Shown: in pieces, positions 5,706-55,493 of the stretch
Layout: every line of letters starts with the position of its first letter
Numbering within the stretch: position 1 is the stretch's first letter
NCBI RefSeq assembly: GCF_018863395.1
Contig: NZ_JAHKRR010000012.1
Coordinates: 1-64,000 of the forward strand
Origin: Sinomicrobium weinanense
Lineage (GTDB): Bacteria; Bacteroidota; Bacteroidia; Flavobacteriales; Flavobacteriaceae
Length of the DNA: 64,000 bases
Reading direction: 5' to 3'
Notes under the pieces: model-generated
What the model saw: the letters and a program-made list of their open reading frames with translations, nothing else
What the model was told of the DNA's origin: nothing
Database searches by the model: none
Position numbers and translations under genes: made by a program

Positions 5706-5764
5706 AAGCGAGAATTGTTAAAGGTTCTGATAATTAAAAACTCCTTTACTGTTATCCTTTTTTT

Positions 5765-7806: not shown

Positions 7807-9483
7807 TTACCTGGGCATTGCAGATATCTGGCTTTTGGTTGCAAGGTTGATCTTTGTATCGTGGGATATTTTCCCGTAATCGAACTTCAATAGCCTGTCG
7901 CAATGGTGAAAATAGTGATCATCGTGCGTCACGGCTATCACTGTTTTACCCATTGCCTTGAGCCTGGCCAGTATTACTTCATAAAAATAGGCTCGGAATA
8001 CAGGGTCCTGTTCTGCGGCCCATTCGTCGAGAACAATGAGCTCCCTGTTCTCCATCAGGGCATAGATCATGGCCAGCCGCTTGCCTTGCCCTTTGGACAG
8101 GGCCGTGGAGATATTGCCTTGTTCTTTATTGATTTGCAAGATCTCCTGAAGTTTCATCATCTGTACATATTCCATCAATTCTCCATTTTCTTCCTGGATA
8201 TCGAAAGCGTTATAATTTTCTTCGAAGAGGTAATTATTCGTGAATATTGCCGAGAACTGATTGCTGTATTCTGCAAATGTGTCCTCGGAGATCCTGTGTT
8301 CATTAAAGTAAATAGCCCCGTCACTTATGGTATAGAGGCCGGTAAGCAGGTTTACAAAAGTACTTTTGCCGCTGCCGTTACCTCCCGTGATAAAGATGGT
8401 CTCCCCCCCTGTGATCTCAAGGTCTATGGGGCCCAGTTTAAAGGTTTTGTTCTGGTTCTCATCAAAATATTCAAAGACGATCTGTTCAAAGCGAAGGCTT
8501 TTAAAATGTTTATCCAGTACATGCGAACTGCTATCCAGCAACCGGATATTTTCACCGGCCCTGATGTCTTTTTCCAGTTTTTCTATCCGGTCTACCGCGA
8601 TATGAATGTTATTGATATGGGTAACAATCCCTACCAGGGCCGAAAGCGGCCCCATAAGGTAAAGGACAACCACGATAAAAGGAACCACTTCTGCGGCCCC
8701 TATTTCTGTTATCCTGGGCAGTACAAAGATCACCAGCCCCAGGGCGATGTACCAGCTATAACGGCCAATGAGTTCGTTGTCGAGATATTGCATTGCAGCC
8801 CTCTTGCCCAGGCTTTTGGCGGTAATCCTGTTCACCTTCAGGAATTTTCCGAAAAGGGTATTATTCCTGGTAATACTCATTTTTATCTCCTTAAACCCGT
8901 TCAGGAGGTCTTGCAGGTACTTGTAATAACTATCCTGAAGGTCGCGCACCTTATTGATATCTTTCCTGATCCGGTTATTGCGAAGTACATAAAAGGCCAA
9001 TACTCCTATCATAATCCCGATCATGGCAAGGCCGCCAAGGGGAGAAACCCAGCACATATAGGCCAGCGCACACAAAATAACGACCACAGAATTGATGATA
9101 ATAACGAGTACTTCGGGCGCTATACTTAATACACGAACATCATTTATGGCCGTATACACTCGCTGCGAACCCAGTTTCTGAAAATCAAAATAAGCGGTAA
9201 CACGCAGTTTTTCCAGTAGATTGAGCTCATAATCGTAAAGTATGTCCTGGGTGAGCTTTACGATATAGGACTGGAATATCTTGGTAGATACTATGGAAAT
9301 AAGTAACAGGCCCGAAAAGATCGCCCAGTCGTATTCCGGGAATAAGGGTATGGGTTCCCCTGAAATGGTTTTGTTGACAAACAGCAACAAAAAACTGTAG
9401 GTTACACTGTTGATGATCCCGAGGAGCAACAGGGCCGTGTAGAAAAACCTGGAACGGGTATGGAATACTTTTAACAAATACAT
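7807..9483 (-). CDS. cyclic-peptide ABC exporter (SyrD/PvdE family)
   Basis: A fused permease-ATPase of 558 residues. Residues 1-300 hold about six membrane helices. The ATPase part has Walker A GGNGSGKST (367-375, K373), a degenerate signature LSKGQGKR and Walker B LIVLDEW. This length and the LSKGQ-K-R form fit the SyrD/PvdE group that moves nonribosomal peptides or their precursors across the inner membrane. Its ATG overlaps the stop of the terminal NRPS gene (TAATG), so it is translationally coupled to the assembly line. The expected cargo is the lipopeptide or an acylated precursor delivered to the periplasm, where the adaptor/permease pair and S41 peptidase would act. Confidence 0.9.
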   Translation of the reverse strand: MYLLKVFHTRSRFFYTALLLLGIINSVTYSFLLLFVNKTISGEPIPLFPEYDWAIFSGLLLISIVSTKIFQSYIVKLTQDILYDYELNLLEKLRVTAYFDFQKLGSQRVYTAINDVRVLSIAPEVLVIIINSVVVILCALAYMCWVSPLGGLAMIGIMIGVLAFYVLRNNRIRKDINKVRDLQDSYYKYLQDLLNGFKEIKMSITRNNTLFGKFLKVNRITAKSLGKRAAMQYLDNELIGRYSWYIALGLVIFVLPRITEIGAAEVVPFIVVVLYLMGPLSALVGIVTHINNIHIAVDRIEKLEKDIRAGENIRLLDSSSHVLDKHFKSLRFEQIVFEYFDENQNKTFKLGPIDLEITGGETIFITGGNGSGKSTFVNLLTGLYTISDGAIYFNEHRISEDTFAEYSNQFSAIFTNNYLFEENYNAFDIQEENGELMEYVQMMKLQEILQINKEQGNISTALSKGQGKRLAMIYALMENRELIVLDEWAAEQDPVFRAYFYEVILARLKAMGKTVIAVTHDDHYFHHCDRLLKFDYGKISHDTKINLATKSQISAMPR

Positions 9484-12400
9484 TATCCTATACTATTGGG
9501 ATTATTAATTAATTCTTCTCTTTTATCGACAATTGTTTCAGACACCATGGCTTCAAGACCATACTTAAAAGCCTCTGCCAGGCGCTGTACGGTTTCCTTT
9601 CGATATTGCTTATCGCTGTATTCTATACGCAGGGTAAGTTCTTTATTTTCCACGAAAGCCGTCACATAGAAATCGTAATTATGCCTGAATTCGAACGGGT
9701 TTTGAGTCGGCCCGACCGGTTCCTGTGCAAAATCAAGGGAAAAGCGGTCTACATCCTCGTCAAATTGTCCAAAGTAATTAAAGCACAGCCGGGGCTTCAG
9801 GTTTTCGGTATGCAAAAGACCGTCCTTATTCAGGTATTTCAGCAGGCCGTATCCTATGCCCCTGGACGGTACTTCCCGGAGCTGTTCCCTGGTCTCCCTA
9901 ACCTGTTCCCTGAGATCATCTGCGCTCCATGAAAGTACTACCGGGTAAGTGGTGGTAAAGTATCCCACCGTGCGGGTGAGATTGATATTTTCAACGATCT
10001 CCTCACGTCCATGCCCTTCCAGTTCCAGTAAAACGGGAGTTATTGAAAATGTATCTCTCACCGCGAGGGCAAGGGCAGTGATCAAAAGGTCGTTGACTTC
10101 TGCTTTCCATTGTTTGCCCGTTTCGTAGAACAGGTGACGCGTTTTTTGCCGTTCTACCTTAACAATGCATTTTTCCCCGTCTTTGACCAATAAACCCTCT
10201 GCCTCGTAATCTCTCGGGATGGCGGGAATATCCAGCCGGGATATACGCTGCCAGTACGGCAATTCACTGTTTATAAACCCGGGGCTGTTGGCATGATCTA
10301 CCAGGGTTTCGGCCCAGTGTTTAAAGGCGGTGGTTTTGGGAGGCAGTTGAAACGTACTTCCGGAAGTATATTGCCGGCAGAGGGTTTCTATGTCTTCAAA
10401 GAGAATACGCCAGGAAACCACGTCCATGACCAGGTGATGGATCACTACAAGCAAGCGGTCCCCATCGGGCACACGGAACAGGCCGAGTTTCATCAGGGGC
10501 CCGGTAGTGAGATCGAGGCTTTGTTGTATTTTATACGCCTCTTGCTGAAGGGCTTCGTAAGGGGCATCGAGTGCCCTTAAGTCGTGTTTTTCACAATAAA
10601 AAGGAAAATCCACAGTGTGGTTATACTGCTCTATCCCTTCGCCGTTGTACCGGAAGGTCATCCTCAGGGCATCGTGATGTTCCTGTAGTTTTTCAAAAAC
10701 CTCCCTTACCATATTTTCGTCAAAGCCAGAGGCCGACCTGAACATCAGGGCAAAGTTAAAGTGGTCCCTGAACTTCTTTTCTTCCGAAAAAAATTCCCGC
10801 TGTATCGGGGTCAGGGGAACTATTCCCGTAACCGCCTCCCGGCTGTTATGTTCTTTAGTTTTCCGGATACGCCCGGCAAGCTCTCTGACGGTGTTGTGGC
10901 GTAGAATATCCTTTACCTGAACCTGCCAGCCCATCCTGTGAAGTTGCGAAGAGACCTGTATGGCTTTGACAGAGTCCCCCCCTATCGTAAAAAAATCATC
11001 GTTAACACTTATCCTGTCATGTCCCAGGACCTCTGCCCATACCCCGGCAATTACAACTTCCATTTCATTTTCTGGGGCTTCGTAAATTTCCCCGGGACCG
11101 GACCTTGATCTTTCCAGGGCTCTGGTATCTATCTTTCCATTAGGGGTCAACGGAAAGTTTTTTAGCTGTACAAAGAGAGCAGGGACCTTATATTCCGGAA
11201 GCTGTTCCAGCAAAAAGGCCCGGAGAAGTTCCCTGTCCAGTACTTTCGCTGCCTTATAGTAAGCTGCGAGCGAACTGCTTCCTTCCTTATCTTTTATGGC
11301 TGCGACAAAGACCTCATCCATTTCGGGGTATTCCCGCAGCATATTTTCAATTTCCCCTGTTTCTACCCGGTTCCCCCTTATCTTCACCTGGTCATCGTTG
11401 CGGCCCAGGTACTGAAGTTCCCCGTTGGGGAGCCACTGCCCCGTATCCCCGGTAAGGTAGAGCCTGTCTCCATCCATAAAGGGGTTATCTATAAATTTTT
11501 GGGCGGTCAGTTCCTTTTGCTTCCGGTATCCCTGCGCCACCCCTGCCCCGCCTACGGCTATTTCGCCGGTCATTCCCAAAGGCAACAGGCGATGTTCGGC
11601 ATCCAACAGGTAAACCGAAGTATTGGCAATGGGCCTTCCTATGGTGATATCCTGCGGATGTTTTATATGTTTTACCGTACAGCCCACGGTAGTTTCGGTA
11701 GGGCCGTACTCATTATAGATATGCAGTTGATCATTCAGCCGTTGTAAGAGTTCTACCTGGGAAGGGTTTAACGCCTCCCCGCCGGTGATGACCGTTTTTA
11801 CGTTGGTGTATTCCAGTCCTGTATATTTCATCAAACTGATATGCGAAGGGGTCAGCTTTACTGTATTAACCGGGGTTTCGGGGTTAAAGATATCGCGAAG
11901 AATATCGGTTATCTCCGTTTCTTCATCGTATATATAAAGGCAGTCCCCCCTTGAAAGTGTGGTGAAAATACAGGTAATGGTCAGGTCGAAGGAAACAGGA
12001 GTGAACAACGGGAAATCATATCGATCCTGCCCGTTAAAGTAATAAGTGTTGGCCCAGGCGACATAATGGTGAAAATTATCCAACCCAACTTCCACCCCCT
12101 TTGGTTTCCCGGTAGACCCCGAAGTGTAGATCACATAGGCGAAGTCTGAAGGAGCGCCTTCTGTAGCCATATTGGTGGTTTCTTCTTCCGATAAGGATAT
12201 CTTTTCCAGGTCCGCAATGGGAGTTGAAGAAACATCTGTCCACTCTTCCCCGGCGATCATCAGATCTGCACCGGCATCTTCCAGGACTTGCTTCACATAT
12301 GCCCTGGGGCTGTTTGCAGCGATAGGCAGGAAAGCTGCCCCGGTCTTGAGGATACCGAGCAATGCTACAATCAAATACGGGGACCTGGGCATCAGAACGG

Positions 12401-13352
12401 CTATACATTGCCCGGGGCCTACATTGTGTTCTCTTTTCAGGTACCCTGCAAGCTGGTTGGCCTTTTCGTTCAGTTCTCCGTAATGCATTACCGTATCTTT
12501 AAAGACCAGGGCCCCGGACCCGGGAGAAAGGGTCGACAGTTTTTCAAAAAGATCCACAAAAGCATGGGGCTTTCCCGAAGCCCAACGAGGCATTACAGGG
12601 CTTAAACCGTCGAGTAACAGTTGTTTTTCCTCATCCCCAAGAATATCTATCGCACCTACAGGTGTTTCCACCTCCCCAAAGGAGGAAAAAAGTTTCTTGC
12701 AATGTCCCGGTATCCTGTTCACAAAATCCGGGTCGAAATAAGATCGGTTATAACAAAGTGTTATGTCTATGGCCTCTCCCTGCCGGGTGACGGTAAAAGC
12801 CATGTCGGGCAGGCCTTTTTTGGGCATTTCCGTGTGCAATCCATCGAAGGACAGGGCAACATTGGTACGGTAAGGCACAACACCGCTAACCGGGAGCAGG
12901 TCTAGGGGAAAATTCTGGTACCGGTATGCCCCGGAGAGTACTTCTTTGAACCGGTTGAGATGGTCCTTTACCGATAATGAAGGACATATCTGTATACACA
13001 AGGGGACTTCATTGCAAAATACTTCTCCGTTGAAAGCGGCTTTGAACAAGGGGGTCCATACCGTAACACAGTCCCGGCCGGTGTACCTGCCAAGCAAAAT
13101 ACTCCACCCCAACCCAAGGATGGTAAGGAGGCCAACATCATTGCCTTTGGACAATTTTATGAGTTTCCGGGCTGTGGGGTCTCCCAGCGTGAATATAAGT
13201 TCGCCCCGTTCCTCCCCTGAAAACAGCCTCGGGGTATGATACTGGCAGAAAACGAAGCCTTCCTCGAATTGCGGCAAAAATTGCTGCCAGAATTCAAAAT
13301 ACGGAAGGTAATGGCTTCCTGTAAAACGTATTTTATCTATTGTTCTCCCCAT
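9483..13352 (-). CDS. terminal NRPS: partial C - A(Asn-like) - PCP - E, no thioesterase
   Basis: 1289 residues. Residues about 1-245 look like only the C-terminal lobe of a condensation domain, with no HHxxxDG motif. An adenylation domain follows (about 263-745, YTSGSTGKPKG core). My manual alignment to GrsA gives the ten-letter code DLTKIGEVGK, close to known Asn codes. The PCP has GGDS, the form usual before epimerisation domains. The C-terminal E domain shows HHLVMDVVSW, EGHGRE, VGYFTTTYP, GIGYGLLKY and NYFGQFD. The chain would therefore end in D-Asn. No TE or reductase domain follows; the gene stops at the exporter gene. It begins two bases after the stop of the preceding NRPS gene, which ends in a full C domain that must serve this A domain in trans. 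Confidence 0.9.
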   Translation of the reverse strand: MGRTIDKIRFTGSHYLPYFEFWQQFLPQFEEGFVFCQYHTPRLFSGEERGELIFTLGDPTARKLIKLSKGNDVGLLTILGLGWSILLGRYTGRDCVTVWTPLFKAAFNGEVFCNEVPLCIQICPSLSVKDHLNRFKEVLSGAYRYQNFPLDLLPVSGVVPYRTNVALSFDGLHTEMPKKGLPDMAFTVTRQGEAIDITLCYNRSYFDPDFVNRIPGHCKKLFSSFGEVETPVGAIDILGDEEKQLLLDGLSPVMPRWASGKPHAFVDLFEKLSTLSPGSGALVFKDTVMHYGELNEKANQLAGYLKREHNVGPGQCIAVLMPRSPYLIVALLGILKTGAAFLPIAANSPRAYVKQVLEDAGADLMIAGEEWTDVSSTPIADLEKISLSEEETTNMATEGAPSDFAYVIYTSGSTGKPKGVEVGLDNFHHYVAWANTYYFNGQDRYDFPLFTPVSFDLTITCIFTTLSRGDCLYIYDEETEITDILRDIFNPETPVNTVKLTPSHISLMKYTGLEYTNVKTVITGGEALNPSQVELLQRLNDQLHIYNEYGPTETTVGCTVKHIKHPQDITIGRPIANTSVYLLDAEHRLLPLGMTGEIAVGGAGVAQGYRKQKELTAQKFIDNPFMDGDRLYLTGDTGQWLPNGELQYLGRNDDQVKIRGNRVETGEIENMLREYPEMDEVFVAAIKDKEGSSSLAAYYKAAKVLDRELLRAFLLEQLPEYKVPALFVQLKNFPLTPNGKIDTRALERSRSGPGEIYEAPENEMEVVIAGVWAEVLGHDRISVNDDFFTIGGDSVKAIQVSSQLHRMGWQVQVKDILRHNTVRELAGRIRKTKEHNSREAVTGIVPLTPIQREFFSEEKKFRDHFNFALMFRSASGFDENMVREVFEKLQEHHDALRMTFRYNGEGIEQYNHTVDFPFYCEKHDLRALDAPYEALQQEAYKIQQSLDLTTGPLMKLGLFRVPDGDRLLVVIHHLVMDVVSWRILFEDIETLCRQYTSGSTFQLPPKTTAFKHWAETLVDHANSPGFINSELPYWQRISRLDIPAIPRDYEAEGLLVKDGEKCIVKVERQKTRHLFYETGKQWKAEVNDLLITALALAVRDTFSITPVLLELEGHGREEIVENINLTRTVGYFTTTYPVVLSWSADDLREQVRETREQLREVPSRGIGYGLLKYLNKDGLLHTENLKPRLCFNYFGQFDEDVDRFSLDFAQEPVGPTQNPFEFRHNYDFYVTAFVENKELTLRIEYSDKQYRKETVQRLAEAFKYGLEAMVSETIVDKREELINNPNSIG

Positions 13353-13354
13353 TC

Positions 13355-16300
13355 TTAAAATTCAAAATCAAAAGATCCTTCTATGCTTTTTTCTGTATCG
13401 GCCCCGATAAATACATCCTGTTCCCCAAGACCGATATCTGCTATTTTGGTGTCACTGCAATGGCATACAGCTTTCAGGAGGGTTTCCATTCGCTCTGCCA
13501 TAGCTGCTATCGTCCCTTCCCTGAAAAGATCGGTGTTGTATTCCAGGAGCAGCCTTATATTTCCATTGTCTTCAAAAAACCGGTAAGACAGGTCGTATTT
13601 GCTGACCTTATTATCCGTTTTGTAGCCTGTAATGCTCAATGGCCCCTCTTCCTGGCGTAAGTTGCGTGTATCTGTGTTCTGGTATTCTACCATTACATCA
13701 AATAAAGGGTTCCTGCTCTTGTCCCTGGGCACCTGGAGGTCATCCACCAACTTGTCAAAAGGATATTCCTGGTGTTCAAAAGCCTCCATCAATATGCTTT
13801 TGGCCCGGGCAATAAGTGCCTTAAACGAGGTTTCGCCAGTAAACTGCATCCGTAACGGAAGCGTATTGACATAGAAGCCCAGTTGATCCTCGAGTTGATG
13901 ATGCCCCCTCCCGGATACCAGTATCCCGACAATAATATCATCCTGCCCGGTACAGCGGTGCAAAAGGGCATTGACCGCGGCTGTAAACAGCATGTGGAGG
14001 CTCGCTTCATTTTCTCCTGCAAGTTGCTTCAAACCACTGGTGACCTCGTCGGAAAAGCGCCATTCGTGAACATTTCCGTTAAAGGTCCTGGTCAACGGCC
14101 TGTTGAAATCAACGGGAAGTTCAAGCCTGAGGAGTTCTCCGCCGAACTTGCCGGTCCAGTAATCCCGGTGTTGTTTCGAATATTCTCCGGCCAACCTGCT
14201 GTTATGCCAATGGGCATAGTCTTTATACTGTATGTCGAGAGCGGGGAGTTCCGGTTGCCGGTTATTTTGAAATGCCTCATAACATTGCATAAGTTCGTTG
14301 ACCATGATCCCCAGGGACCAGGCATCGGAAACAATATGGTGTATGGTAAGCAGCAAAAGGTGATTTTCCCTTTCCAGGTGAATGAGTTTTACCCGCAACA
14401 GGGGGCCGTTTTCCAGGTCAAAGGGACAAACCACTTCTGCATTGGCATAGTTGGCTGCCTGGACATCCCTGTCTGCTTCTTCCGACAGGTCTATGTGATC
14501 TGCCTTAAAAGTGGTTTCATCGCTTTCCATCACTTTCTGATATGGCCTGCCCTCGTGTATAACAAAGACGGTACGAAGTATCTCATGCCGATCGACAAGC
14601 AGGCGGAAGGCTTCAACCAGGGCGTCGACATGGAGTGCTCCTCTGAGCTCAAGGGCCAAAGGGATATTATAGGTAGTTTGTTTTTCTTCGGACTGGTGTG
14701 CGAGCCACAGCCGTTTTTGAGCGTGAGAGAGTTCGTAATATTCGCTTTGAGGTGCCCGATCTATAGCATTGGATCGCCGGACGGAAGCATCTATAACAGC
14801 CGCAAGGGTACTGATAGTAGGATGTATGAACATGGTACGGAGATCCAGCTGTACCCCAAATTTGCGGTGTATCCAGGACAGCACCCTCATCGCCGTAAGG
14901 GAGTGGCCTCCAATACTGAAAAAATCGTCGTCAGTACCTGGATTGTCCACTTGCAGGATGGCTTTCCAGATGGCGCCCAGTTTTTTTTCGGTCGCTGTTA
15001 CGGGCGCCTTATAATCGTCCTCCCTCATCCCGGAAAGCTCGGGTTCGGGCAATGCCTTGTAATCGATCTTGCCATTGGCATTCAGGGGTAAGTTATCCAT
15101 CTGGACGAAATAAGACGGGATCATATAATCCGGCAGAAAGCCTCCCATGTATTTCCGGAGATCGGTGGCCCCTATGTCCGATTTTGCAGTATAATAGGCA
15201 GTTAGGAAGATATTATTCCTTTCTCCTTTGGCGACGACTACGGCTTCTTTCACCTCACTATGCCCGGCCAGTGTGGTATTGACCTCTCCGATCTCCACCC
15301 GGAACCCCCTGATCTTTACCTGGTGGTCTTTTCTGCCCAGGAATTCCATTTGCCAATCCGGCGACATACATCCCAAGTCGCCTGTCCTGTACATCATTCC
15401 CCCTAGCTCTTTCCGGAAAGGGTCCTTTACAAAGGCATTGGCGGTCTTTTCGGGATCATTGGCATATCCGCGCGCCACACCGATACCTCCTATGAACAAT
15501 TCTCCGCGGACGCCCTGGGGCACAGGGTTGAGGTATTCATCGAGTATATAGAAAAAGTTATTGGCTAAAGGACGGCCATATGGGATACTCGACCAGTGCC
15601 GGTGCTTACCTTCTACCGGGTAAAAGTTAGACCACACGGTCCCTTCAGTGGCCCCGCCCAGGCTGATCACCCGGGTTTCGGGGAAAAACTTCCTGATCCG
15701 GTCGGGAAGGTCTACGGGTATCCAGTCACCACTCATAAATACGACCTTCAGATCGTGTTGCAGGTAATTTTCACCAGCATCCTCTAAGCCGGTGATGAGG
15801 TGGTTCATTGTGGTAGGAACAGAATCCCAGAAGGTGATGCGGTGCTCCTGCATCATCTTTTTAAGCAAGTGTACGTCCCGGACTTCTTCCTGTGTAGCCA
15901 TGATCACTGCCCCACCGGCGGCCAGGGTTCCGAAGATGTCATATACAGACAGGTCAAAACACATGGAGGTGATAAAAAGCTGCCTGTCGTCGTATCCTAT
16001 ATCATAGGTATTGTTTACCCAGGTTATCAGGTTAACGGCAGAACGGTGTTCGATCATCACGCCCTTGGGCCGCCCCGTGGACCCGGAGGTGTAAATGGTA
16101 TAGGCCAGGTCGGTGACTGACTTGGGCAGGTCAAGATCAGTGGCTTCATAGGTATCGAAACACCCAGGCTCCATTAAAATATGAAGGATGTCATCCGAAA
16201 GCTCCTCCATGACCTCATAGTACCGGTCGGACAACAGTACTTTTACTTTGGAATTATCACAAATATACAGTTGACGGTCTGCCGGGTATGAAGGGTCTAT

Positions 16301-19789: not shown

Positions 19790-19791
19790 AG

Positions 19792-20595: not shown

Positions 20596-20605
20596 TATCG
20601 ATCGT

Positions 20606-28228: not shown

Positions 28229-28266
28229 GTGTTCTTTTTTATTTTGATTGTAGGCATTTCAAAGTC

Positions 28267-40200: not shown

Positions 40201-40842
40201 CTGGTGAACAGCTACAAGCGAAGAGGAGCAGGCCGTATCTACTGCTATGCTCGGCCCTTGCAGCCCGAGTATATACGAAATACGTCCCGCAGCAACATTT
40301 AAGGCATTACCGGTATTGAAATAGGCATCTATATTTTCCGGGCTATCCTTGTCAAAAATATGCTGGGCATAATCATTGGTGGTGATCCCCACAAACACCC
40401 CGGTATCGCTTCCCCGGAGTTTCTCCATGTTATAACCCGATCTTTCAAAAGCCTCCCAGCTCACTTCCAGCAACAGGCGCTGCTGCGGGTCCATCAGGCC
40501 CGATTCCCTGCCGGAGATCCCGAAGAACCTGGCATCGAAAGCATCTACATTCTCAAGAAAACAACCGTATTTTGAATAGATACGTCCTTCTTTCCCCTTA
40601 TCAAGGTCGAAATATTTTTTCCAATCCCACCGTGTTTCGGGTACTTCGGTTACCAGATCACTGCCGTTCCGAAGGAGTTCCCAGAACTTTTCCGGATCAT
40701 TGGCATTTCCCGGAAAGCGACAGGCCATTCCGACTATGGCTATGGGAGCCTGCCTTTCCTGCTCCATTTCTTTTATTTGAGATTGCAACTTGTTTACCGC
40801 TAACACGGCATTTTTCAGTAGGGCTTGTGAAGATTTTTGCAT
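28267..40842 (-). CDS. hybrid PKS/NRPS: KS - AT - ACP - aminotransferase - C - A(Ala-like) - PCP - C - A(Val-like) - PCP - C
   Basis: 4191 residues. The KS (about 33-455) has Cys205, His340 and His380. The AT (about 555-870) has GHSVGE with Ser648 and the malonyl-type HAFH at 748-751. ACP Ser970 is in EMGADS. A Pro/Glu/Gln-rich linker (about 1010-1028) leads to a GSA-type PLP aminotransferase (about 1115-1575, Lys1405 in TTYGKIVGGG), as in mycosubtilin MycA and microcystin McyE; it should turn the beta-keto thioester into a beta-amine. Then C (AHHIICDGWS), A1 (hand code DLFNNALTYK, Ala-like), PCP, C (MHHIISDGWS), A2 (DAFWLGGTFK, Val-like), PCP and a terminal C (MHHIISDGSS). It starts three bases after the preceding stop. 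Confidence 0.93.
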   Translation of the reverse strand: MQKSSQALLKNAVLAVNKLQSQIKEMEQERQAPIAIVGMACRFPGNANDPEKFWELLRNGSDLVTEVPETRWDWKKYFDLDKGKEGRIYSKYGCFLENVDAFDARFFGISGRESGLMDPQQRLLLEVSWEAFERSGYNMEKLRGSDTGVFVGITTNDYAQHIFDKDSPENIDAYFNTGNALNVAAGRISYILGLQGPSIAVDTACSSSLVAVHQACQAIRQGDCGMAVAGGVNLLLSPVSSIGMSRMGMLSANGRCSAFDAEADGIVRGEGCAVVVLKKLSDALADNDIIFATIKGSAINQDGASGGLTVPNGRAQEKLIEKALASANLRSGDVDYVETHGTGTALGDPIEANALARTYGKDRPGNTPLVLGALKTNIGHLEACAGVAGLIKAVMSLQKEELVPPIHFKTPNPGISWNEISLEVPRDIRPWRSNGRIRRAGVSSFGFSGTNAHIIVEEAPKIKKVTGEEYGPHILAISAKSEIALREKALEFSRFLQHSPDKLGDICYTANSKRDHFQYRAAFVVVSKEEAANALDKLTGDQAIPYPGTTEQNHKTAMLFTGQGSQYFGMGKELYDTRPVFRKVLDHCHDVLKEHMDIPLKDILFDEQYAGLVHQTAYTQPALFAVEYALAELWRSWGIKPTVLLGHSVGEYVAACLAGVFELDDALRLIATRGRLMQQLPGGGGMAAIFQAGDQVLEVLKSYTGKVAVAAINGPELTVISGEMESVKQVAAHFEAQGTRTKELEVSHAFHSALMKPMLEEFRKEAEKISYSPPRLKVISNLTGEIAGDEIATADYWCKHILSPVYFYPSVQALEKEQAGLYIEAGPTPSLMAMMRNYTGTENKLWATSIHPKASGQKYILEQLVNVYNEGFTIDWDGFYSLRDHQRVLLPAYPFQKKSYWFKREIKSRPEKNEQPVRKSTDITSMTPGKNSVLKAGVLHSLREILGEILHEDPSGLDDQMSFIEMGADSIVLVEALKKIEKKYSVTLKISELFEELSTLDALSRYIADQQPAPEPGPEPQPQPEPSSRMEPQTGETSVHFNGNGDIQALLMKQMDVMQQTMMAQMEVIKNYGKDTVEEDLAPVQHQQNKHFAPQKGNNKAKHSAAGDTSRFNAIRLKEDRELTGKQQQYLAELIRNYNIKTAGSKAYAQQHRGVLSDWIGSLGFRLAIKELIYQIVAERSSGSRFWDIDGNEYIDLALGFGVNFFGNSPDFVKKAVRTQLEEGFELAVQSDLAGEVAGLIREITGAERVAFSNTGTEAVMNAMRIARAASGKTKIVIFKGFYHGTFDGYLAESVQEGNAIYAIPVAPGTTAGMVEDIVPLNYGSEESLRYIEEHADELAAVMVEPVQSRRPGHFPEAFLLKLREITERTGVAMILDEIITGFRSHPGGVQGMLGIRADITTYGKIVGGGMPIGIIAGSSKYLNKIDGGWWQYGDSSYPATQMTLFGGTFCKHPLAMVAAKAVLLRIKAEGHALCERVNRMTDRLATAVNTFFESKNITIRIAHFGSLFRFEPYGKYNSLLQPIEMDIFFYTLISKGVYTWERRINFLSAAHTEEDVETVIEKVRETIEDMIAGGFFPESGGGDPPEGNNPGANGKIPHLYREYTGKNGTGSRGNTLVQAEIPPGSFPLSESQRQLWVLGQMDKEGAMAYHMPVTIGLEGKLNVKALRMALQLIVDRHEALRTTFSAGGDCQVVHESLQLDFSEEDHSNLQGEEKEQTVIKWQKNMVRKPFNIEHGPLFRAGLLKTGNENYMLSLVAHHIICDGWSLGVLSGELGKIYNSLAEGTSWDGPPPFQFRECMQRRNAKLSSERIKAQEQYWMNVFSSTPPALEWPTDRPRPAIKEYRGKSRLISLGRTQSERFLHMGKERGGTPFMTFFTAYTVLLHKLTGQKDLVIGIPVMGREFDEDATAIGYCANVLPIRINVEAEQTLLQLLKTVRKQLINGFENADFTLAQLISKMQSGNDFSRPPVVSTLFNLNPANLVSPELKGLQSHILPKAIAHTAYELIFDITLHGDGGYFLECDYNTGLFNNNTILRFVRYYERIMDIMAASPETVIGEVNIIPEDERQKQLKVFNDTRKIYPEGPALPHLFEIQTARSPGSTAVVYEEGELSYDSLNKRANRLAAYCREKYNAGPGKFIGVMMDRSPDMLTAMMAILKSGAAYVPIDPTYPRERKAYIIRDSGLDLVITDKDPADELGENNIPHLIYDSGKSISFNKYPSENPEPLHGPDDTAYLIYTSGSTGEPKGVVISHKNVAAFLHWAGEEFADTDFNIVYAVSSICFDLSVFELFFPLYAGRSVRILPSGLYIREYLQNDEKVLINTVPSVVQRLVREEADLGHVTAINMAGEEIPRKLLQELDGNRMELRNLYGPTEDTTYSTVYRLTGEENPVLIGRPIANTKAYILSEDLQLLPLGAVGEICLSGEGVAGGYLHRQELNREKFIENPFEPGMRMYRTGDLGRWTPDGLLEFKGRKDHQVKIRGHRIEPGEIERTLEKHKAIRDIAVIAKGRENEKIAEALMAFYTTYAPVKVQDLQEFLLSRLPAYMMPDNFVHLDKMPRTLNGKIDRKALHGWNVKTKATGIVSPKTEVEKQLLVLWQQVLGREEISTTDNFFNLGGHSLKASELIFRIQKEMGVKLEIRSLFTATTIASQAILVESATQDRLSMIPGIEEREYYELSPSQKRLWRQDQFTEEQTTYTMPGAFHIRGPVKGKLLEAALQKLLHRHESLRTVFFAVKGDPVQKVLSPDQVALAMEYTDLSKEEDAQARAKEIISRDIEKGFDLQRAPLFRVKFIRTTAGDTVLFFNMHHIISDGWSVRVLMDEVMHYYQGGTKQPLAVQYKDFAAWQKQRLEGDKMQETKAYWNNKLGKGELPVLDLRTDHIRPSRSSYRGKTLSLKLDRELTAMLKNYAREKETTFFMMLAATVKALLYHYTGQKDLIVGTPVAGREHPDLSEQIGFYVNTLPLRTEFDPDKGFEELLMQAREAILEVYTHQEYPFDRIVEDLNIDYTPGRAPLFDVVISWVDPANDPEKQQGDLWLTEMQLENTTSKFDFSFEFREAGDSLVLNLEYSTDLFTEMRMQRMLGHYLQLVTQIVKDEKKPLGQLEILNAEEKEQLLHTFNEQKDYPRQHTITALFEEQVEKTPGAVAVCAGEQTLTYGELNAMANRVAHYLIENFALQPEERIGCCTDNNIWTAITILGILKAGGCYVPLDSEAPEKRIRHMLSDTAAKVVLTDGRTLAEYPGFGNCPVINLSELQDELKKYPGKSPVVALSPENLAYIMYTSGSTGEPKGVMVMHRNVVRLVKNTNYIQLGGDDSLLLTGAPTFDATTFEMWGMLLNGGTLYLLPQRELLDIRHLKQALAGHSITTIWFTASWFNHLADTDLSVFAPLKTLLVGGDRLSPVHINKVKTAFPGLKVINGYGPTENTTFSVCHQVDDLYEYDIPIGRPVANSTVVILGASGQLVPIGVKGELCLGGDGLSRGYLNREKLTAEKFDDHPFEPGEKLYRTGDLGCWNEDGTISFMGRKDTQLKIRGYRIEPGEIEYALQQHPAIEKAIISTFNTAGGEVQLVAYFTARARLDTEAVKTYMAKLLPAYMIPACFMQLDTIKLTPNGKADLKALPAPSSSTGKENMDVATMTPEEEKLARLYKEVLGVEQVSLTDNFFDRGGHSLKAAKLLNSIHKEFSTDIDLREIFRNPVLGDLAKIVTSSNPMNYEAIPLLGQQEHYELSFAQKSLWTVEQFEGRNAAYNISTAHRLKGDIDQDILEEAFKQVVKRHESLRTNFKAVNEVPVQFIHSLEDFPFRVEILDYSTRENPEKEALEYVHKKAEHTFDLSEDPLFQVVLIKVAPGERILLLNMHHIISDGSSMEVLLQDVLAFYHGLTEGTVNKIAPLPVQYKDFAAWQNKRLEEDGLERLLEYWRHRLNDAPALLDLPIDFERPQKTSFEGDNIDFHIDETETALLEAIAREQETTLFAVLFTIYGLLLSFITRQNDIVLGTSMAGRYREDIQDIIGFFVNNIALRATLNKTLDFNRQLAENSSNIQEDLVHGQLPFNLLLRDLQPRRIPGTTPVFQSRFVYNDLSGDSYSKRQILENKVEVSELQLHRAGAKYETVLAITRDGNKLVCNMEYRTDLFKRSTVEKFISDFKTLSGIIAHNPEIKITQLELELAERSDKRKKEKQGKSLHALRNIKPSLMN

Positions 40843-40845
40843 GGG

Positions 40846-43800
40846 CTATAAAATGTTTTTCAACTGATCTTTTAAAACATCTTCCAGTTCACTTTCCGTC
40901 ATCTGGTCGAGATTTCCCGGAAGACCTTCAGCTAAAGAATATTCGGGGAGTATGTTATTTTCTTCAGGGGTTGTTAAGGGGGTAGTAAAATAGGATACCA
41001 TAAGCTCCTCCTTAAAGTATCGCATTATATCGTTGACCGTAGGATAATCGAATACTACGGTCTGGTGCAGTTTTACCCGGAGGCCCGATTCCAGTTTTTC
41101 TTTGATGACCAAAGCAGAGATGGAGTCTATTCCCAGGTCAAAAAAACCTTTATCATCCGGAACCGGGTTTTTATAGCCCAATACCGAGGTTATCTGTGAA
41201 CGAATGTGTTTTTTCAAAACTTCTTCCCGTTCGTCCACTGGCAGGCTGGCCAACTGCTTTAAGAAAGGGGATGTCCCTGTCGAGGCTTCCCCACTATTTT
41301 CCGTAAGATCTTCGGATACGGGCCGGTTCACATAATGTTCGTATAGTTCCCTGAACCTGTTCCAATCCACTGAGGATATCAACACTTGCGTTGCCTCGGT
41401 ATTCATCAGGCAGAGAATGTTGTATATCAGGTTTGAAGGCTCGAGTTCGGTAATCCCGATACTGTTAAACATCAGCTTGTTCTTTTCTGCCATTCCTCCC
41501 CCGGCCACCGGACCAAGATCAATGGTCAGCGCAGGAAGCCCAAGGCTCCTTCTGTAATGTGCAAGCTGGTCCATAAACTGGTTACCAGCGGCATAATGTG
41601 CCTGAGCTTTTCCTCCAAAGACCGCCGTTGCCGAGGAGAAGCAGGCAAAGTGTTCCAGGGGAAGGTCCCTGGTAAAGTGATGCAGGTACCAACTCCCCGA
41701 GACCTTCGGTGCTGCTGTGGCCATAAATTGCTCCCGGTTCATGGTATCTACCGGGTGATATTCTGTAATGCCTGCAAGGTGGAAAACCCCTTTTAGCAAG
41801 TCTTGTTGTGCAATACTTTGAATGGTATTTTGTATGTCGGCCTTATTGGAAGCATCCATCTTTACGACCTTAACCTCCGCTCCAAGGGATTGGAGTTCCC
41901 CGAGCTCATCGATGATAACCTTTCTGCTGTCTCCATCCGGAAGCCCGGTTGCGGACGGCATCCCTTTCCTGGAAGTAAGGACCACTTTTTTGGCCCCCTG
42001 GCCGATCAGTGCGCGGGTGAGCCTAAGGCCGAGGTAACCCAGTCCCCCGGTGACCAGGTAAACACCGTTGGCATCACAGGTGATCGGTGCGGCATGTGTA
42101 TATACGCCTTTCCTGAGCCTGTATACATATCGCTGCCTGTCCCTGTAAACAACCAGGTCTTCACTCGAGGGATCGCATATTTCCGAAAGGATGAGCTTTG
42201 TCGCCAGGCTTGCGGACTGGTCGCCCAGGTCTATCAATCCGCCCCAGTTCTCTTTCATTTCCAGGGCTATCGTCTTACCTATCCCCCACAAAGGCGATTG
42301 TAACAAGCCTTCGAGTTCCACCTTGCCTACCGGCTGAACATTTTTGGTTATGACATGCAATGATGCCTCTTCTGCATTCCTGTTTATGGCCCGGGCCACT
42401 TCTATCAGCCGGAAATGATCTTCGGGAAAAGGCTCTTCCATCCCGGTTGTCTCCTGGAAGTAGAGGCAATGAACACTATATGAAGTACTGTTATTTACAG
42501 GTATTTCATTAAGATACCGGGCTATATCTTCAGTGGCTTTCCTGCCGGGAGGAATAACCGATACGTTCTGTCCGGCGGCCTGTAACTGTTGTAACACAGC
42601 ATGGCCATGTCCCTCTTCTTCCGTAAATAGTACCCAGTATGTATTGTCGGGGAAAGAAACTTCCGGAAGGACCTCGCTTTTCTTCCAATAGGACTCGTAA
42701 GTGTGCTTTTTCAGCAGGTCCTCAGTTTCATCTGCCTTTTCTGCTCCGGGTAACCAATCCAGGGAACTCTCCCTGCTTTTTACCCAGTATGATGATCTTT
42801 CAAACGGGTATTGTGGCAGTTTATCTGCAAATCCGGGGAAATGCTTTGTATACAACATATCCCATTTTATATGGAACCCTTCAGAGAAAAACTTCGCCAG
42901 GCATTCGAGGAACTGGGGGACAAATCCTTGAGTAACATCAAATCCGGGGTATTGTTGCCCATCCAATGATCCATCTTCCGGGGCTATTCCTATCCCGAGG
43001 ATGCGATGGTCTCCGGTTATTTTCGATTTTCCATTATCATGGGGCTCAGCCGTCAATCCTGCCCTGAGGTACAGACCGATGGCCGTGACCTCTTCCAGGG
43101 TAACTTCATCCAGAAGCGGTATAAGTCCATTGCGATACGCATTGTCTTGTTCCACTGTTTTCCATGCTTCCTGTTTGCCTTCGTCCAGTTTCCCGGCCAG
43201 GCCTACTGCTGTTTGCAGGGTGATGGCCCCTGAAAAACACGCTGCTGCCAGCCTGCCTTTTCCCGTTCCCATTACCGATGCTGAATTTATATTGGCGGTG
43301 AGATAGCACCTGGCCATACCTATGCCAAAAAGCAGGGAAATAACCGTGGGGTATTTTTCGGGTGACCGGGGGTTCTCTCCACTTTCGAAAAACTGTTCAA
43401 AACAATCCCTGATATCTTCAAGCCCGGCAAAGTTGCTCAGGGCTTCCTTTAATAAAGAAACTGTTGCCGTTCCTCCGTTAAAAAGGAAAAAAAGAGTATC
43501 GTTGGGAGTATCTTTTAGTGTTATGACCGGGGCGGTATTCAACGCAGTTAAAAGTTCATCCCTGTTCTTTACTACAACGATCTTCGCATGCCCGAACTTT
43601 GTCCTTCTGCATGTGGTCATATACGAAATGGAGGCCAGATCGGGGGTTTCTCCGGCAACCCATTGACAGCACAGGTTGGTGAGTTTTTCCAGTGTCGGTC
43701 CCGTTTTTGCCGTTATGACTATGGGATAATGGGAAAGTTTTTCTTCTTTATCTGTCCCCTCAACTACCGGCAAGGCTTCTTCCAATACCAGGTGAGCGTT

Positions 43801-46800
43801 GGTTCCTCCGAAACCAAAAGAGCTTACCCCGGCCAATCTTCTACCCTCGGTTTCCCAGGGTGTTAGTTCTTCGGGGAAACATATTCCGGAGTTCTCCTTT
43901 AACCGGATATGCGGATTGCGTTCACGGTAGTGCAATAGTTTCGGGACCTTCCTGTTCTTCAGGGTCAACACGGTTTTTATCAGCCCTGCAACCCCGGCTG
44001 CCGCTTCGAGATGCCCGATATTGGCCTTTGCAGAGCCTACCAGGCATTTTTTACAGTCATTCCCCTTATCGATAACTTCTGCCAGGGCGTGAAGTTCTAT
44101 AGGGTCCCCGAGAGGTGTTCCGGTACCGTGGGCCTCCATGTAGCCCAATTGTCCGGGGCTTACCTTTGCCCGGAGCAAGGCTTTTTCAATGACGGCCTGC
44201 TGGGCCCTGCCGTTCGGTGCAGTAAGACCGTTACTTTTTCCGTCCTGGTTAATGGCCGATCCTTTTATAATGGCATGCACCCGGTCGTTATCCCTTATGG
44301 CATCCTTTAGTCTTTTCAGGACTACCATACCGCACCCTTCGCCACGTACATAGCCGTTTGCCGAGGTGTCGAATGTCCTGCAATTCCCGTCTTCGGAAAG
44401 CATGCCTGCCCTGGTAAATACAACATTAAGGGCAGGATTAATGATAAGGTTCACTCCCCCGGCCAGGGCGGTATCGCTCTCCCCCAGTTTCAGGGACTGG
44501 CAGGCCTGGTGTACAGCTACAAGTGAGGACGAACAGGCCGTATCTACCGCTATGCTTGGCCCGGTGAGATCGAACAGGTAGGATATACGATTGGCAATGA
44601 TACTGGACGAATTTCCGGTACCACTGTACGCATTAAGCGCCGACAGATTATTGAGTTGCAAACTGGAATAATCACTGCTGCTCGCCCCTATAAAAACGCC
44701 TGTATCGGAACCGGAAAGCCTGTCTTCCGGTATCCCGGCATCCTCGAGGGCATGCCAGGCAACTTCCAGTACCAACCGTTGTTGAGGGTCCATGTGCTCT
44801 GCTTCTACCGGGGCAATACGGAAGAACGGGGCATCAAAGTGGTCGATATCGTTCAGGTAACCTCCCCTGGTTATCGTTTTTTCTGCTTTCGATAAAATGT
44901 ATTCCCTGTTCCACCGGCTGTTCTCCACTTCCCTGATACCGCTTCTTCCTTCTTCCAGGAGTGTCCAGTATTCATCCGGGGAGTCAGCCCCGGGGAAACG
45001 GCAGGCCATTCCCACAATGGCTATGGGTTCGTCTATACCCCCCTCCCCTTCTTCTTGGTTAAAATCCAGGGGATCCTGTTCTACTTCTTTATTACACAAA
45101 CCCTTAGCAAGGCTTTGCATATCGGGAAAGTTCCACGCTATGGTAGGATTGGTTTTCAGGCCAAGGTCTGTTTCTATGGCCCGGGAAAACTCTACAGCAA
45201 TAAGAGAGGTCATCCCCAGTTCTTCAAAGCTTTTTGTCGCCGTGATCTCTTCTACGGGTAATTGCAGCCTTTTGGACAACCAGTGTCGTATCCAGGTATA
45301 AGTTTCTAGGTATGTGTATGTATTATTATCATTTGCAATAACTGTTTCCTGTAATTCCTCTTCCAGCAATATCCTGAGCTCCTGTAATACCCCCTCGTAT
45401 GTCCCACTGATAAATTCTTCCGCCATGGCTACCCTTTTGATCTTCCCACTGGTAGTTTTCGGGATTTTCCGGACGGGGATCATATGGGCTACTTCTATAC
45501 CAACTGCTGTTGTAATGTGTTTTTTTAGTTTTTTCAGAAGAGGCAAAAAATCAGGGGCTTTTCGTTTGAACAGTACAAAGAGTACGATGTCCTCAATGCC
45601 GGCACTCTCGTTTGGGATACCACAGGCAACTACTTTCCCTCCCTCGATCTCATCCAATTCTTCAGCAACCCGTTCCAGGTCGTGAGGGTAAATGTTCTGC
45701 CCTGCGACGTAAATGATCTCTTTCATCCTCCCGGTAATGAAAGTATCATCCTTGTAGATGAAACCCAGGTCCCCGGTATTCAGCCAGCCATCGCTGTCTA
45801 TGGTCCTGGCTGTCGCTTCCGGATTGTTATAATAGCCTTTGGTGACATTTTCTCCCCTGATATGTACAAATCCCACTGTACCTTCTTCCACGGGTTTTCC
45901 ATTTTCATCCGATATCCGCAGTTCGCAAAAGGAAATGGGTTTGCCGCAGTTTACCATTTCCAGGGCCCGTTCCGAAATGAGTTCAACCCGTTGTCCCGGC
46001 CCCAGTGATCTCCTGTCGACCTTTATTGAGGACATGGGGCGGCCGGCACGGGGAAAGGTTACCGCCAGGGAGGCCTCAGCCAGGCCATACACGGTAAACA
46101 TAGCGCTTTGCTTTAATCCGAAAGGTTTAAAAGCGTCCAGGAACTGACGGCATACCTCTGCCGAAATGGGCTCTGCACCGTTAAATATCCTACAGACCGA
46201 AGACAGGTCTACCCCCTGCAACTTGTCTTCATTGAAAAATTTAAGGCAGTGTTGATAGCCAAAATTCGGGGAAGAAGTAACATGAATACGGCGTTTTGAC
46301 AAATTATGTATCCACAATAAGGGATGCCTTATAAAGAGCTCGGTAGGCATAATATACTGATCGGCCCCCAGAACTACCGGGGTGAGATGGAAGCCTATTA
46401 ACCCCATATCGTGAGTAAGAGGCATCCAACTGAATATTCTATGTCCATTTTCCAGGGATGCCCCGGTTATGATCCCTTCTATATTTTTGAGCAGGTTGGT
46501 ATGTGTCAGGGCAACACCTTTCGGATCACCGGTAGAACCGGAAGAGAACTGAATGAATGCAATATCATCGGGAGAACTTTGATGTACAGCTCCCCCAATT
46601 TCATGGCCCTTTGCATCATAGACAAAAAGCACACGATCATTAACGCTGCTATCAACATCGATATGTTTGCCGAGTTTTTCGAAATTGGAAGTAGTGGTCA
46701 ATAAAACAGGCGTATTTAATACCTGCCATACCCGAAGAAGTTTGGAGATCCCTTCCTTATGATGTGAAACAGAAAGCGGTACCGGTATAAAGCCCCCGGC

Positions 46801-47034
46801 AATACAAGCCCAGAATGAGATCAGAAAATCTTTATTATCATCAATCTGAAAAACAACCTCGTCTCCCGGTTGCAGCCCCCTGGATTGCAAATATCCCAGG
46901 CATAAAAGCATTTTTGCATAAAGGGCTTTATAGGAAACCTTCTCCTCTGCGTCCGTACCCGATATAAAAGTAATTCCCCTGTTCTCATTTTTCCGGGCAA
47001 TATTCAACTGCCCTAGAAGCGTTTCGCTGTTCAT
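40846..47034 (-). CDS. loading protein: FAAL - ACP - KS - decayed AT - KR - ACP
   Basis: 2062 residues, first gene of the operon. Residues 1-560 are a fatty-acyl-AMP ligase (FSSGSTGDPKG at 163-173, GLAEASLAVT near 317, TGDLGF at 420). ACP1 uses Ser610 (ELGMTS). The KS (about 669-1086) has Cys834, His969 and His1008. The next block (about 1100-1420) matches an acyltransferase in position and in its post-AT linker, but GQGSQ is lost (NGGTA) and GHSxG is GTGKG (1256-1260), so the nucleophile Ser is Gly1258. The KR has TGGLGYLG (1662-1669), Ser1800/1801 and Tyr1814. ACP2 Ser1971 is in DLGIDS. Expected job: activate a fatty acid, add one malonate unit (charged in trans), and reduce the ketone to a hydroxyl. 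Confidence 0.93.
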   Translation of the reverse strand: MNSETLLGQLNIARKNENRGITFISGTDAEEKVSYKALYAKMLLCLGYLQSRGLQPGDEVVFQIDDNKDFLISFWACIAGGFIPVPLSVSHHKEGISKLLRVWQVLNTPVLLTTTSNFEKLGKHIDVDSSVNDRVLFVYDAKGHEIGGAVHQSSPDDIAFIQFSSGSTGDPKGVALTHTNLLKNIEGIITGASLENGHRIFSWMPLTHDMGLIGFHLTPVVLGADQYIMPTELFIRHPLLWIHNLSKRRIHVTSSPNFGYQHCLKFFNEDKLQGVDLSSVCRIFNGAEPISAEVCRQFLDAFKPFGLKQSAMFTVYGLAEASLAVTFPRAGRPMSSIKVDRRSLGPGQRVELISERALEMVNCGKPISFCELRISDENGKPVEEGTVGFVHIRGENVTKGYYNNPEATARTIDSDGWLNTGDLGFIYKDDTFITGRMKEIIYVAGQNIYPHDLERVAEELDEIEGGKVVACGIPNESAGIEDIVLFVLFKRKAPDFLPLLKKLKKHITTAVGIEVAHMIPVRKIPKTTSGKIKRVAMAEEFISGTYEGVLQELRILLEEELQETVIANDNNTYTYLETYTWIRHWLSKRLQLPVEEITATKSFEELGMTSLIAVEFSRAIETDLGLKTNPTIAWNFPDMQSLAKGLCNKEVEQDPLDFNQEEGEGGIDEPIAIVGMACRFPGADSPDEYWTLLEEGRSGIREVENSRWNREYILSKAEKTITRGGYLNDIDHFDAPFFRIAPVEAEHMDPQQRLVLEVAWHALEDAGIPEDRLSGSDTGVFIGASSSDYSSLQLNNLSALNAYSGTGNSSSIIANRISYLFDLTGPSIAVDTACSSSLVAVHQACQSLKLGESDTALAGGVNLIINPALNVVFTRAGMLSEDGNCRTFDTSANGYVRGEGCGMVVLKRLKDAIRDNDRVHAIIKGSAINQDGKSNGLTAPNGRAQQAVIEKALLRAKVSPGQLGYMEAHGTGTPLGDPIELHALAEVIDKGNDCKKCLVGSAKANIGHLEAAAGVAGLIKTVLTLKNRKVPKLLHYRERNPHIRLKENSGICFPEELTPWETEGRRLAGVSSFGFGGTNAHLVLEEALPVVEGTDKEEKLSHYPIVITAKTGPTLEKLTNLCCQWVAGETPDLASISYMTTCRRTKFGHAKIVVVKNRDELLTALNTAPVITLKDTPNDTLFFLFNGGTATVSLLKEALSNFAGLEDIRDCFEQFFESGENPRSPEKYPTVISLLFGIGMARCYLTANINSASVMGTGKGRLAAACFSGAITLQTAVGLAGKLDEGKQEAWKTVEQDNAYRNGLIPLLDEVTLEEVTAIGLYLRAGLTAEPHDNGKSKITGDHRILGIGIAPEDGSLDGQQYPGFDVTQGFVPQFLECLAKFFSEGFHIKWDMLYTKHFPGFADKLPQYPFERSSYWVKSRESSLDWLPGAEKADETEDLLKKHTYESYWKKSEVLPEVSFPDNTYWVLFTEEEGHGHAVLQQLQAAGQNVSVIPPGRKATEDIARYLNEIPVNNSTSYSVHCLYFQETTGMEEPFPEDHFRLIEVARAINRNAEEASLHVITKNVQPVGKVELEGLLQSPLWGIGKTIALEMKENWGGLIDLGDQSASLATKLILSEICDPSSEDLVVYRDRQRYVYRLRKGVYTHAAPITCDANGVYLVTGGLGYLGLRLTRALIGQGAKKVVLTSRKGMPSATGLPDGDSRKVIIDELGELQSLGAEVKVVKMDASNKADIQNTIQSIAQQDLLKGVFHLAGITEYHPVDTMNREQFMATAAPKVSGSWYLHHFTRDLPLEHFACFSSATAVFGGKAQAHYAAGNQFMDQLAHYRRSLGLPALTIDLGPVAGGGMAEKNKLMFNSIGITELEPSNLIYNILCLMNTEATQVLISSVDWNRFRELYEHYVNRPVSEDLTENSGEASTGTSPFLKQLASLPVDEREEVLKKHIRSQITSVLGYKNPVPDDKGFFDLGIDSISALVIKEKLESGLRVKLHQTVVFDYPTVNDIMRYFKEELMVSYFTTPLTTPEENNILPEYSLAEGLPGNLDQMTESELEDVLKDQLKNIL

Positions 47035-48533: not shown

Positions 48534-48558
48534 TGTTTTATGAGATTATTGTTATACA

Positions 48559-48736: not shown

Positions 48737-48756
48737 TTTTAGAACTACAAATGGCC

Positions 48757-48801: not shown

Positions 48802-48900
48802 AAGGCATTTTTTATTTGATCTGATTCTCCCTATCAAGAAATGCATTATCTCCCCATACGATTATACCAGATTTTCCGGTCAATGTCGGGTTTATTTTAT

Positions 48901-55471: not shown

Positions 55472-55493
55472 GGAATAAATAAGTTCCCTTGTT

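Follow-up and report, generated by a model that had tools for sequence, protein, structure and literature searches.

What product would be made by the large run of biosynthetic genes on contig NZ_JAHKRR010000012.1 of Sinomicrobium weinanense (Bacteroidota, Flavobacteriaceae; RefSeq assembly GCF_018863395.1)? The window analyzed here is the 64,000-nucleotide stretch covering positions 1 to 64,000 of this contig. On its minus strand, one continuous run of genes, overlapping or separated by short gaps, extends from 47034 down to 186, including five uninterrupted megasynthase open reading frames (ORFs A to E) that combine polyketide synthase (PKS) and non-ribosomal peptide synthetase (NRPS) modules. 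An earlier sequence-only reading, made without database searches, had proposed that they assemble a lipopeptide of seven residues. Our analysis makes it likely that the run encodes a complete and conserved hybrid PKS/NRPS pathway for a lipo-heptapeptide, as proposed. Within this pathway, we infer that gene order equals chain order, and likewise the residue identities, the D configuration and iso linkage, release, and export.

Pfam and NCBIfam models assigned all of the claimed domains to ORFs A to E with scores far above chance (Table 1). Specificity codes were computed by aligning the adenylation (A) domains to a GrsA segment verified against PDB 1AMU. The first four codes are DLFNNALTYK, DAFWLGGTFK, DLTKLGHIGK, and DVGEIGSIDK, which we take to be the standard codes for Ala, Val, Asp, and Orn, and the remaining three are DARHLSLMIK, DLYDFSLVWK, and DLTKIGEVGK. 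The last is identical to the codes of BamA A2 and BamB A2 in the annotated bacillomycin D synthetase, where the residue at both positions is presumably Asn. The available part of PMC12283262 lists the same code in its Asp/Asn section, with beta-cyano-alanine accepted as well. Hence, computed codes reproduce the order Ala-Val-Asp-Orn-?-?-Asn after a fatty acyl group and two PKS units that had previously been read by eye. Of the two positions left blank in that reading, the first can now be placed as a predicted Asp-type diacid and the second narrowed to a small residue. Also new are the presence of the line in two further bacteria, a vestigial acyltransferase (AT), and the lack of a terminal thioesterase (TE).

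Is the line restricted to this genome? We scanned 84,980 species genomes for the aminotransferase (AMT) domain of ORF B with a pattern-based search that returns close relatives only and may leave out records near the window. Of the resulting 65 loci, one in Chryseobacterium rhizoplanae DSM 29371 was 74% identical and the other 64 were at most 57% identical. The C. rhizoplanae contig carries, in a single order, TE-A-B-C-racemase-D-E-exporter-TauD/aldolase, with proteins 46-62% identical to those of the window (ORF A was compared over 1156 aa only). Separately, D-A1, the first A domain of ORF D, was used to search 395 genomes from the window's phylum; at an E-value of 1e-90 it matched genomes G632, G561, and G736 besides the window's own. 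G632 belongs to another family of the same class and has the line together with homologues of the S41 peptidase gene and of a gene without family, all 29-61% identical. The assembly line was absent from the stretches read of G561 and G736. G561, a member of the window's family, has a 5,332-aa NRPS (L105/L106, G561 C23:1-40000) in which A domains one and five both have the code DAKQVALVLK and whose neighbors include a TE, an exporter, and a 4'-phosphopantetheinyl transferase (PPTase) related to the window's. Within the window's family, the AMT search matched 16 of 396 other genomes (L003-L018) at 41-48% identity. The matching ORFs measure 651-2474 aa, with 12 of them between 2,195 and 2,249 aa, and these matches probably represent a different and commoner line. 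The two genomes listed from the same genus gave no match, and each of 50 AMT matches in plasmid records was less than 60% identical.

All seven codes are the same in C. rhizoplanae and G632, and six are the same as in the window, with the remaining code off at two positions. Identical pocket residues number 61/63 between the window and C. rhizoplanae, 61/63 between the window and G632, and 63/63 between the two relatives, despite summed identities across the seven A domains of 57.1%, 55.1%, and 58.8%, respectively. Retention of pockets in domains that are 55-59% identical implies that the predicted peptide sequence has been held fixed by selection. Condensation (C) and epimerization (E) domains formed one-for-one pairs between the three clusters in trees. 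Core gene order is also the same in all three, and each retains the racemase, the exporter, and a TauD oxygenase fused to an aldolase-like domain, along with a stand-alone TE at differing positions. The line therefore looks like a real natural-product family across three genomes rather than a one-off. Since clusters about 50% identical have kept their pockets, we consider the structure prediction worth testing, and C. rhizoplanae DSM 29371 is a strain that can be obtained for the purpose.

These comparisons also bear on whether the line is silent or partly dead. Its vestigial AT, degenerate N-terminal C domain, and missing TE could be signs of decay. However, the dead or missing AT and the degenerate first C domain of ORF C are common to both other clusters at about 50% identity, and all three clusters keep the codes as well as the motifs of the ketosynthase (KS), AT, AMT, and E domains. 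BamB and BamC of the bacillomycin synthetase also begin with a partial C domain. Moreover, retention of 61-63 of 63 pocket residues is not expected under decay, which we consider very improbable.

Consistent with a lipid start, the fatty acyl-AMP ligase (FAAL) of ORF A scored 371.6 bits against the best model of that type. FAAL, KS, and AMT domains all precede the first C domain, which is the pattern of FAAL-initiated PKS/NRPS lines for beta-amino-acyl lipopeptides, and in trees this first C domain clusters with those located after AMT domains, cyanobacterial ones included. Catalytic motifs are present in both KS domains (DTACSSS), the AT of ORF B (GHSVG and HAFH), and the ketoreductase (KR) of ORF A (HYAAGN), and the AMT keeps its lysine motif. 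No AT of ORF A was matched by Pfam at an E-value of 1e-5. Aligning the ORF A stretches of the window and G632 to the real ATs of ORF B with hhalign detected an AT remnant between KS and KR (probability 99.7, E-value 4e-27). In this remnant the GHSxG motif reads GTGKG in the window and GIGLG in G632, while C. rhizoplanae has lost the AT core and retains both AT ends; the three clusters thus show the loss of a PKS AT domain in graded stages. A vestigial AT implies that module 1 must be charged in trans, presumably by the lone intact AT, that of ORF B, or by a transacylase of the cell; no stand-alone transacylase was found among the window ORFs scanned by Pfam. Standard PKS logic leads us to expect a 3-amino-5-hydroxyacyl lipid. 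The FAAL would load a fatty acid, the AT-less module would add a malonyl unit that is then reduced by the KR, and a second malonyl extension would be followed by beta-transamination. The NRPS modules would then add L-Ala, L-Val, L-Asp, and L-Orn to this chain.

The code of D-A1, which would select residue 5, contains the pair Arg239 and His278. In the order that includes Nostoc sp. MG11, a search of 291 genomes with D-A1 (E-value of 1e-95 or better) returned 13 places in 12 genomes, and the pair was present at all 13. In two of these places (G988 and G1039), the code is DARHVGIFVK within a Ser-Ala-Leu or Arg-X-Arg series, which we take to be microcystin synthetase with McyB-type domains. None of the listed codes of loci L019-L051 had the pair. 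In a tree of 98 out of the 103 A domains, built after the nine pocket columns had been deleted from the alignment, D-A1 from each of the three clusters remained nested in the Arg239/His278 clade (support 1.00 for this clade and 0.96 for its part that holds the McyB-type domains). This placement bears out the likeness to microcystin logic that had been suggested from sequence alone. In ACV synthetase, alpha-aminoadipate is activated at its side-chain carboxyl. The available part of PMC12283262 assigns the code DPRHLALLAK to alpha-aminoadipate.

A racemase gene directly precedes ORF D in all three clusters. The racemase scored 137.5 bits with TIGR00035, over the cut-off of 93.1, and its relatives in the PDB include Asp racemase 1jfl (142.5 bits) and McyF 5wxx (42.4). 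Its ORF overlaps the end of ORF C (20595-20655), and the C. rhizoplanae copy suggests an inner Met start. Racemase genes also occur near Arg239/His278 domains in five of the 12 cyanobacterial regions (20-60 kb fetched), being directly before the A-domain gene in G815, G934, and G948, the next gene in G774, and about 17 kb away in G988. As controls, 32 aminotransferase loci (L020-L051) of no more than 21 kb, and so shorter than these regions, had none. The pairing of racemase and Arg239/His278 domain is thereby extended from cyanobacteria to the window's phylum. In G780, the gene preceding the Arg239/His278 module is a TauD homologue (46% identity over 334 aa). Taken together, residue 5 is probably a side-chain-linked D-Asp or its beta-hydroxy form, that is, an Asp-type residue activated at the side-chain carboxyl, probably made D by the racemase and perhaps beta-hydroxylated by the TauD domain. 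As a separate observation, G815 (L128/L129), G934 (L126/L127), and G948 (L130) share a mini-locus in which the racemase directly precedes a gene of about 850-900 aa with the code DARHLALMTK, with no second A domain in the 20-40 kb read.

Several observations weigh against this placement of residue 5. Two G561 domains of the same clade read DAKQ rather than DARH, and the McyB fragment 8hlk scored 253 bits against D-A1, behind several other A domains in the PDB. Use of the distal carboxyl is itself argued from microcystin and ACV biochemistry plus one published code. Racemase co-occurrence extends to only five of 12 cyanobacterial regions, with identical scores in G815 and G948 and none seen in the stretches read near the other seven domains, and to neither of two further regions of the window's phylum. 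The highest NCBIfam score of the racemase was with the cysteate racemase CuyB (158.6, under the cut-off of 190). Furthermore, the available part of PMC12283262 places the code DPRHVSLLAK among Asn-activating codes, and the first A domain of ORF C (C-A1) has an Asp code. Residue 5 might accordingly be an ordinary alpha-linked residue (Asn or Glu, for example) or a different acid, for instance cysteate, with the racemase serving a different position or supplying D-Asp to C-A1. We regard this alternative as unlikely, although not negligible, because D-A1 nests with McyB-type domains even with its pocket masked, the racemase sits directly before the D-A1 gene in every cluster and before the Arg239/His278 gene in G815, G934, and G948, and the C domain downstream of C-A1 does not belong to the type that follows E domains.

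For residue 6, the pocket-masked tree put the second A domain of ORF D (D-A2) next to Ala domains (0.80), inside an Ala/Gly group (0.93). A literature search for the codes DARHLSLMIK and DLYDFSLVWK found neither. We considered Cys from the nearest code printed in the available part of PMC12283262, DLYNLSLIWK, and rejected it since D278 differs and the tree places D-A2 by Ala. For the same two reasons, we claim only that residue 6 would be a small residue of the Ala/Gly/Cys/Ser class.

How would the modules be ordered and the chain released? ORFs B, C, and D each end in a C domain and ORF E ends in an E domain, while the first A domain is preceded by a degenerate C domain in ORF C, none in ORF D, and a partial one in ORF E (read from sequence in the window and matched by the C-domain model in G632). 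ORF E should therefore act last. BamB and BamC likewise start with a partial C domain, and thus such a split between proteins is not unusual. The gene order B-C-D-E is common to the three clusters, with B joining A through the KS of B. We also considered an acyl-D-Asn prodrug start, in which ORF E would act first, and discarded it on the basis of the partial C start and the pattern of domain ends. A tree was built from 107 of 116 C and E domains, those of at least 390 aa; nine shorter domains were left out, among them the degenerate C domain that opens ORF C in the window. None of the line's C domains in the trees fell in the clade of C domains following E domains, which includes three from BamB/BamC, and residues 1-4 should therefore be L. 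C-domain type is uninformative on D versus L at residue 5, because the McyC-type C domain, whose donor we take to be D-MeAsp, also lies outside this clade. The last domain of the line has the motifs HHLVMD and EGHGR and groups with E domains, in agreement with the terminal D-Asn of the sequence-only reading; the final Asn should be epimerized to D. Against the chain as drawn, the FAAL score is under the model's curated cut-off (600), domain logic alone permits B-D-C-E too, and the terminal E domain reads HHxxxDV in all three copies where nine other E domains read HHxxxDG.

Domain scans found no TE domain in the NRPS ORFs and a single E domain, the terminal one. Release by a TE domain was rejected, as the sole TE found stands alone and is RifR/SrfAD-like. 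The locus raises the question of how the product leaves a line whose last domain is an E domain. With no TE domain, release may depend on an enzyme acting in trans or on an intramolecular attack, with the stand-alone TE, the 3-amino group, or water as candidates, and the product is predicted to be exported by the TIGR01194-type transporter.

The TauD-aldolase fusion may provide an additional tailoring step. In the PDB, its aldolase half scored best with 4xxf (148.8 bits), followed by NovR (136.3), other aldolases, and TqaM (99.1). TqaM converts 3-amino-2-hydroxy-3-methylbutanoate to 2-aminoisobutyrate by decarboxylation, according to the available parts of PMC11880133 and PMC12192607. Searching the 395 genomes of the phylum with the fusion (E-value of 1e-60) matched six besides the window's own, with both halves matched only in G632 and the TauD half alone in the other five. 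These relationships suggest that the fusion may first hydroxylate an amino acid and then shorten it. A literature search for a TauD-aldolase fusion or an aminomalonate route listed none, and we know of no one-protein route to such shortened residues.

A more specific proposal, which we advance tentatively and consider rather unlikely in full, is a lipo-heptapeptide family that begins with a beta-amino lipid much as iturin lines do, has iso-D-aspartyl chemistry like that of microcystin, lacks a thioesterase end, and uses the TauD plus NovR/TqaM-type fusion to shorten an amino acid by one carbon. The fusion would then convert Asp to beta-hydroxy-Asp and on to aminomalonate, or Val to 2-aminoisobutyrate, and the shortened amino acid would be the substrate of D-A1 or D-A2. 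The aminomalonate route is proposed because beta-hydroxy-Asp, viewed from C4, is the same type of 2-hydroxy-3-amino acid that TqaM decarboxylates.

Table 1. Features of the gene run in the window.
Feature	Position	Strand	Evidence
ORF A, 2062 aa: FAAL-ACP (acyl carrier protein)-KS-(vestigial AT)-KR-ACP	40846..47034	-	Pfam/NCBIfam, motifs
Vestigial AT of ORF A, ~aa 1107-1420, with GTGKG in place of GHSxG	42775..43716	-	hhalign, three-cluster alignment
ORF B, 4191 aa: KS-AT-ACP-AMT-C-A(Ala)-T (thiolation)-C-A(Val)-T-C	28267..40842	-	Domain models, codes, motifs
Class III aminotransferase domain of ORF B, catalytic Lys motif YGKIVGGG	36109..37470	-	Served as search query
ORF C, 2540 aa: degenerate C-A(Asp)-T-C-A(Orn)-T-C	20606..28228	-	Domain models, codes
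Degenerate N-terminal C domain of ORF C, without HHxxxDG	26939..28225	-	Motif, C-domain model
Aspartate/glutamate-type racemase, motifs LTCNT and GCSE	19792..20655	-	PF01177, TIGR00035, PDB relatives
ORF D, 2144 aa: A(DARHLSLMIK)-T-C-A(DLYDFSLVWK)-T-C	13355..19789	-	Domain models, codes
D-A1, first A domain of ORF D; has Arg239/His278 and is predicted to activate Asp at the side-chain carboxyl	18239..19789	-	Code, tree
ORF E, 1289 aa: partial C-A(Asn)-T-E, predicted end of line, without TE	9483..13352	-	Domain models, codes
Terminal epimerization-type domain of ORF E	9513..10826	-	HHLVMD and EGHGR motifs, tree grouping
Cyclic peptide export ABC transporter	7807..9483	-	TIGR01194, 298.4 bits (cut-off 286.2)
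Stand-alone type II thioesterase, GHSMG	7049..7777	-	PF00975; RifR 146.7 bits, surfactin TEII 116.3 bits
HlyD-like and MacB-like genes	4620..7012	-	Pfam scan
Protein without family	3783..4586	-	Homologue in G632 cluster
S41 peptidase, probable lipoprotein (lipobox by eye)	2775..3779	-	PF03572; homologue in G632 cluster
PPTase	2099..2740	-	PF01648
TauD oxygenase fused to class II aldolase-like (NovR/TqaM-like) domain	186..2021	-	Pfam, PDB relatives

The sequence-only reading had confined the system to 9483-47034. The megasynthase ORFs do lie there, but the cluster spans about 186-47034 because the racemase, TauD-aldolase fusion, exporter, and stand-alone TE are conserved in all three copies and the S41 peptidase and the protein without family in two. 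In C. rhizoplanae, the ORFs of at least 150 aa within 60 kb included no homologue, at an E-value of 1e-5, of the S41 peptidase, the protein without family, the PPTase, MacB, or HlyD, and such ORFs in the read stretches of G632 included none of HlyD or MacB. The synthetase genes have 49% G+C versus 40% for the right flank, compared with 37.7 versus 36.0% and 50.3 versus 48.9% for cluster and flank in the two relatives. Third-position G+C of the synthetase genes overlaps the range of flank genes. Acquisition of the cluster from elsewhere is thus possible, if weakly supported. A tRNA search of the window found none. Just upstream of the operon are methyltransferase and MFS transporter genes (47898-50615). 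Farther away, positions 54009-63338 resemble a type VI secretion neighborhood with a VgrG-like protein (Phage_GPD and OB domains), DUF4280 and DUF2931 proteins, and a candidate Tle1-like phospholipase effector.

Might the product already be described under another name, with its cluster unrecognized? We think this improbable. Among the best-ranked titles and abstract beginnings retrieved for such lipopeptides, no product had this residue order. Chitinopeptins from Chitinophaga are likewise NRPS lipopeptides of Bacteroidetes, but they have 14-15 residues, embedded E domains, and no trans racemase in the available part of PMC9248904, compared with seven modules and one E domain here, and their composition differs. 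Aquicidine L contains Dap, Dab, and Orn, unlike the window line (PMC12677607, available part). According to the part of PMC10734526 available, a survey of 2,680 Flavobacteriaceae genomes found 41 PKS/NRPS hybrid cluster families specific to Flavobacterium alone, with gene sharing with MIBiG entries mostly below 60%. Puwainaphycin-type cyanobacterial lines use FAAL, PKS, and AMT domains to make a beta-amino fatty acid, as predicted for the window (PMC4219810, available part).

The iturin-type line bamDABC of Bacillus velezensis shares with the window a FAAL start, an AMT, a beta-amino acyl start, the identical Asn code, and proteins ending in C domains followed by proteins starting with partial ones. 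The earlier suggestion of an iturin-like start is well founded, with FAAL and AMT 44% and 49% identical to BamA. Bacillomycin has seven residues, like the predicted product. However, a single KS and no KR were matched in the Bam line, where malonyl transacylase is a protein of its own (BamD), E domains number three, BamC has a TE-like GYSSG tail, and the residue codes are otherwise different. The window line has two KS domains, one KR, an AT in cis, an Orn code, and a racemase, and it departs from the single extension with BamD (the AT of ORF B is 29% identical to BamD) and from the C-terminal TE with several internal E domains of iturin lines, having one terminal E domain and no TE. Microcystin synthetase also has an AMT-bearing PKS, with Adda modules, no FAAL, and Glu, Arg, and Leu modules. 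The window resembles it in an Ala domain with the same code, the Arg239/His278 domain like McyB A2, and a racemase related to McyF, and differs in its FAAL start, its residues and their order (Ala-Val-Asp-Orn-X-X-Asn), its one terminal E domain, and its lack of a TE. Judged by domains and codes, the line works like iturin and microcystin lines, yet lacks defining features of both families.

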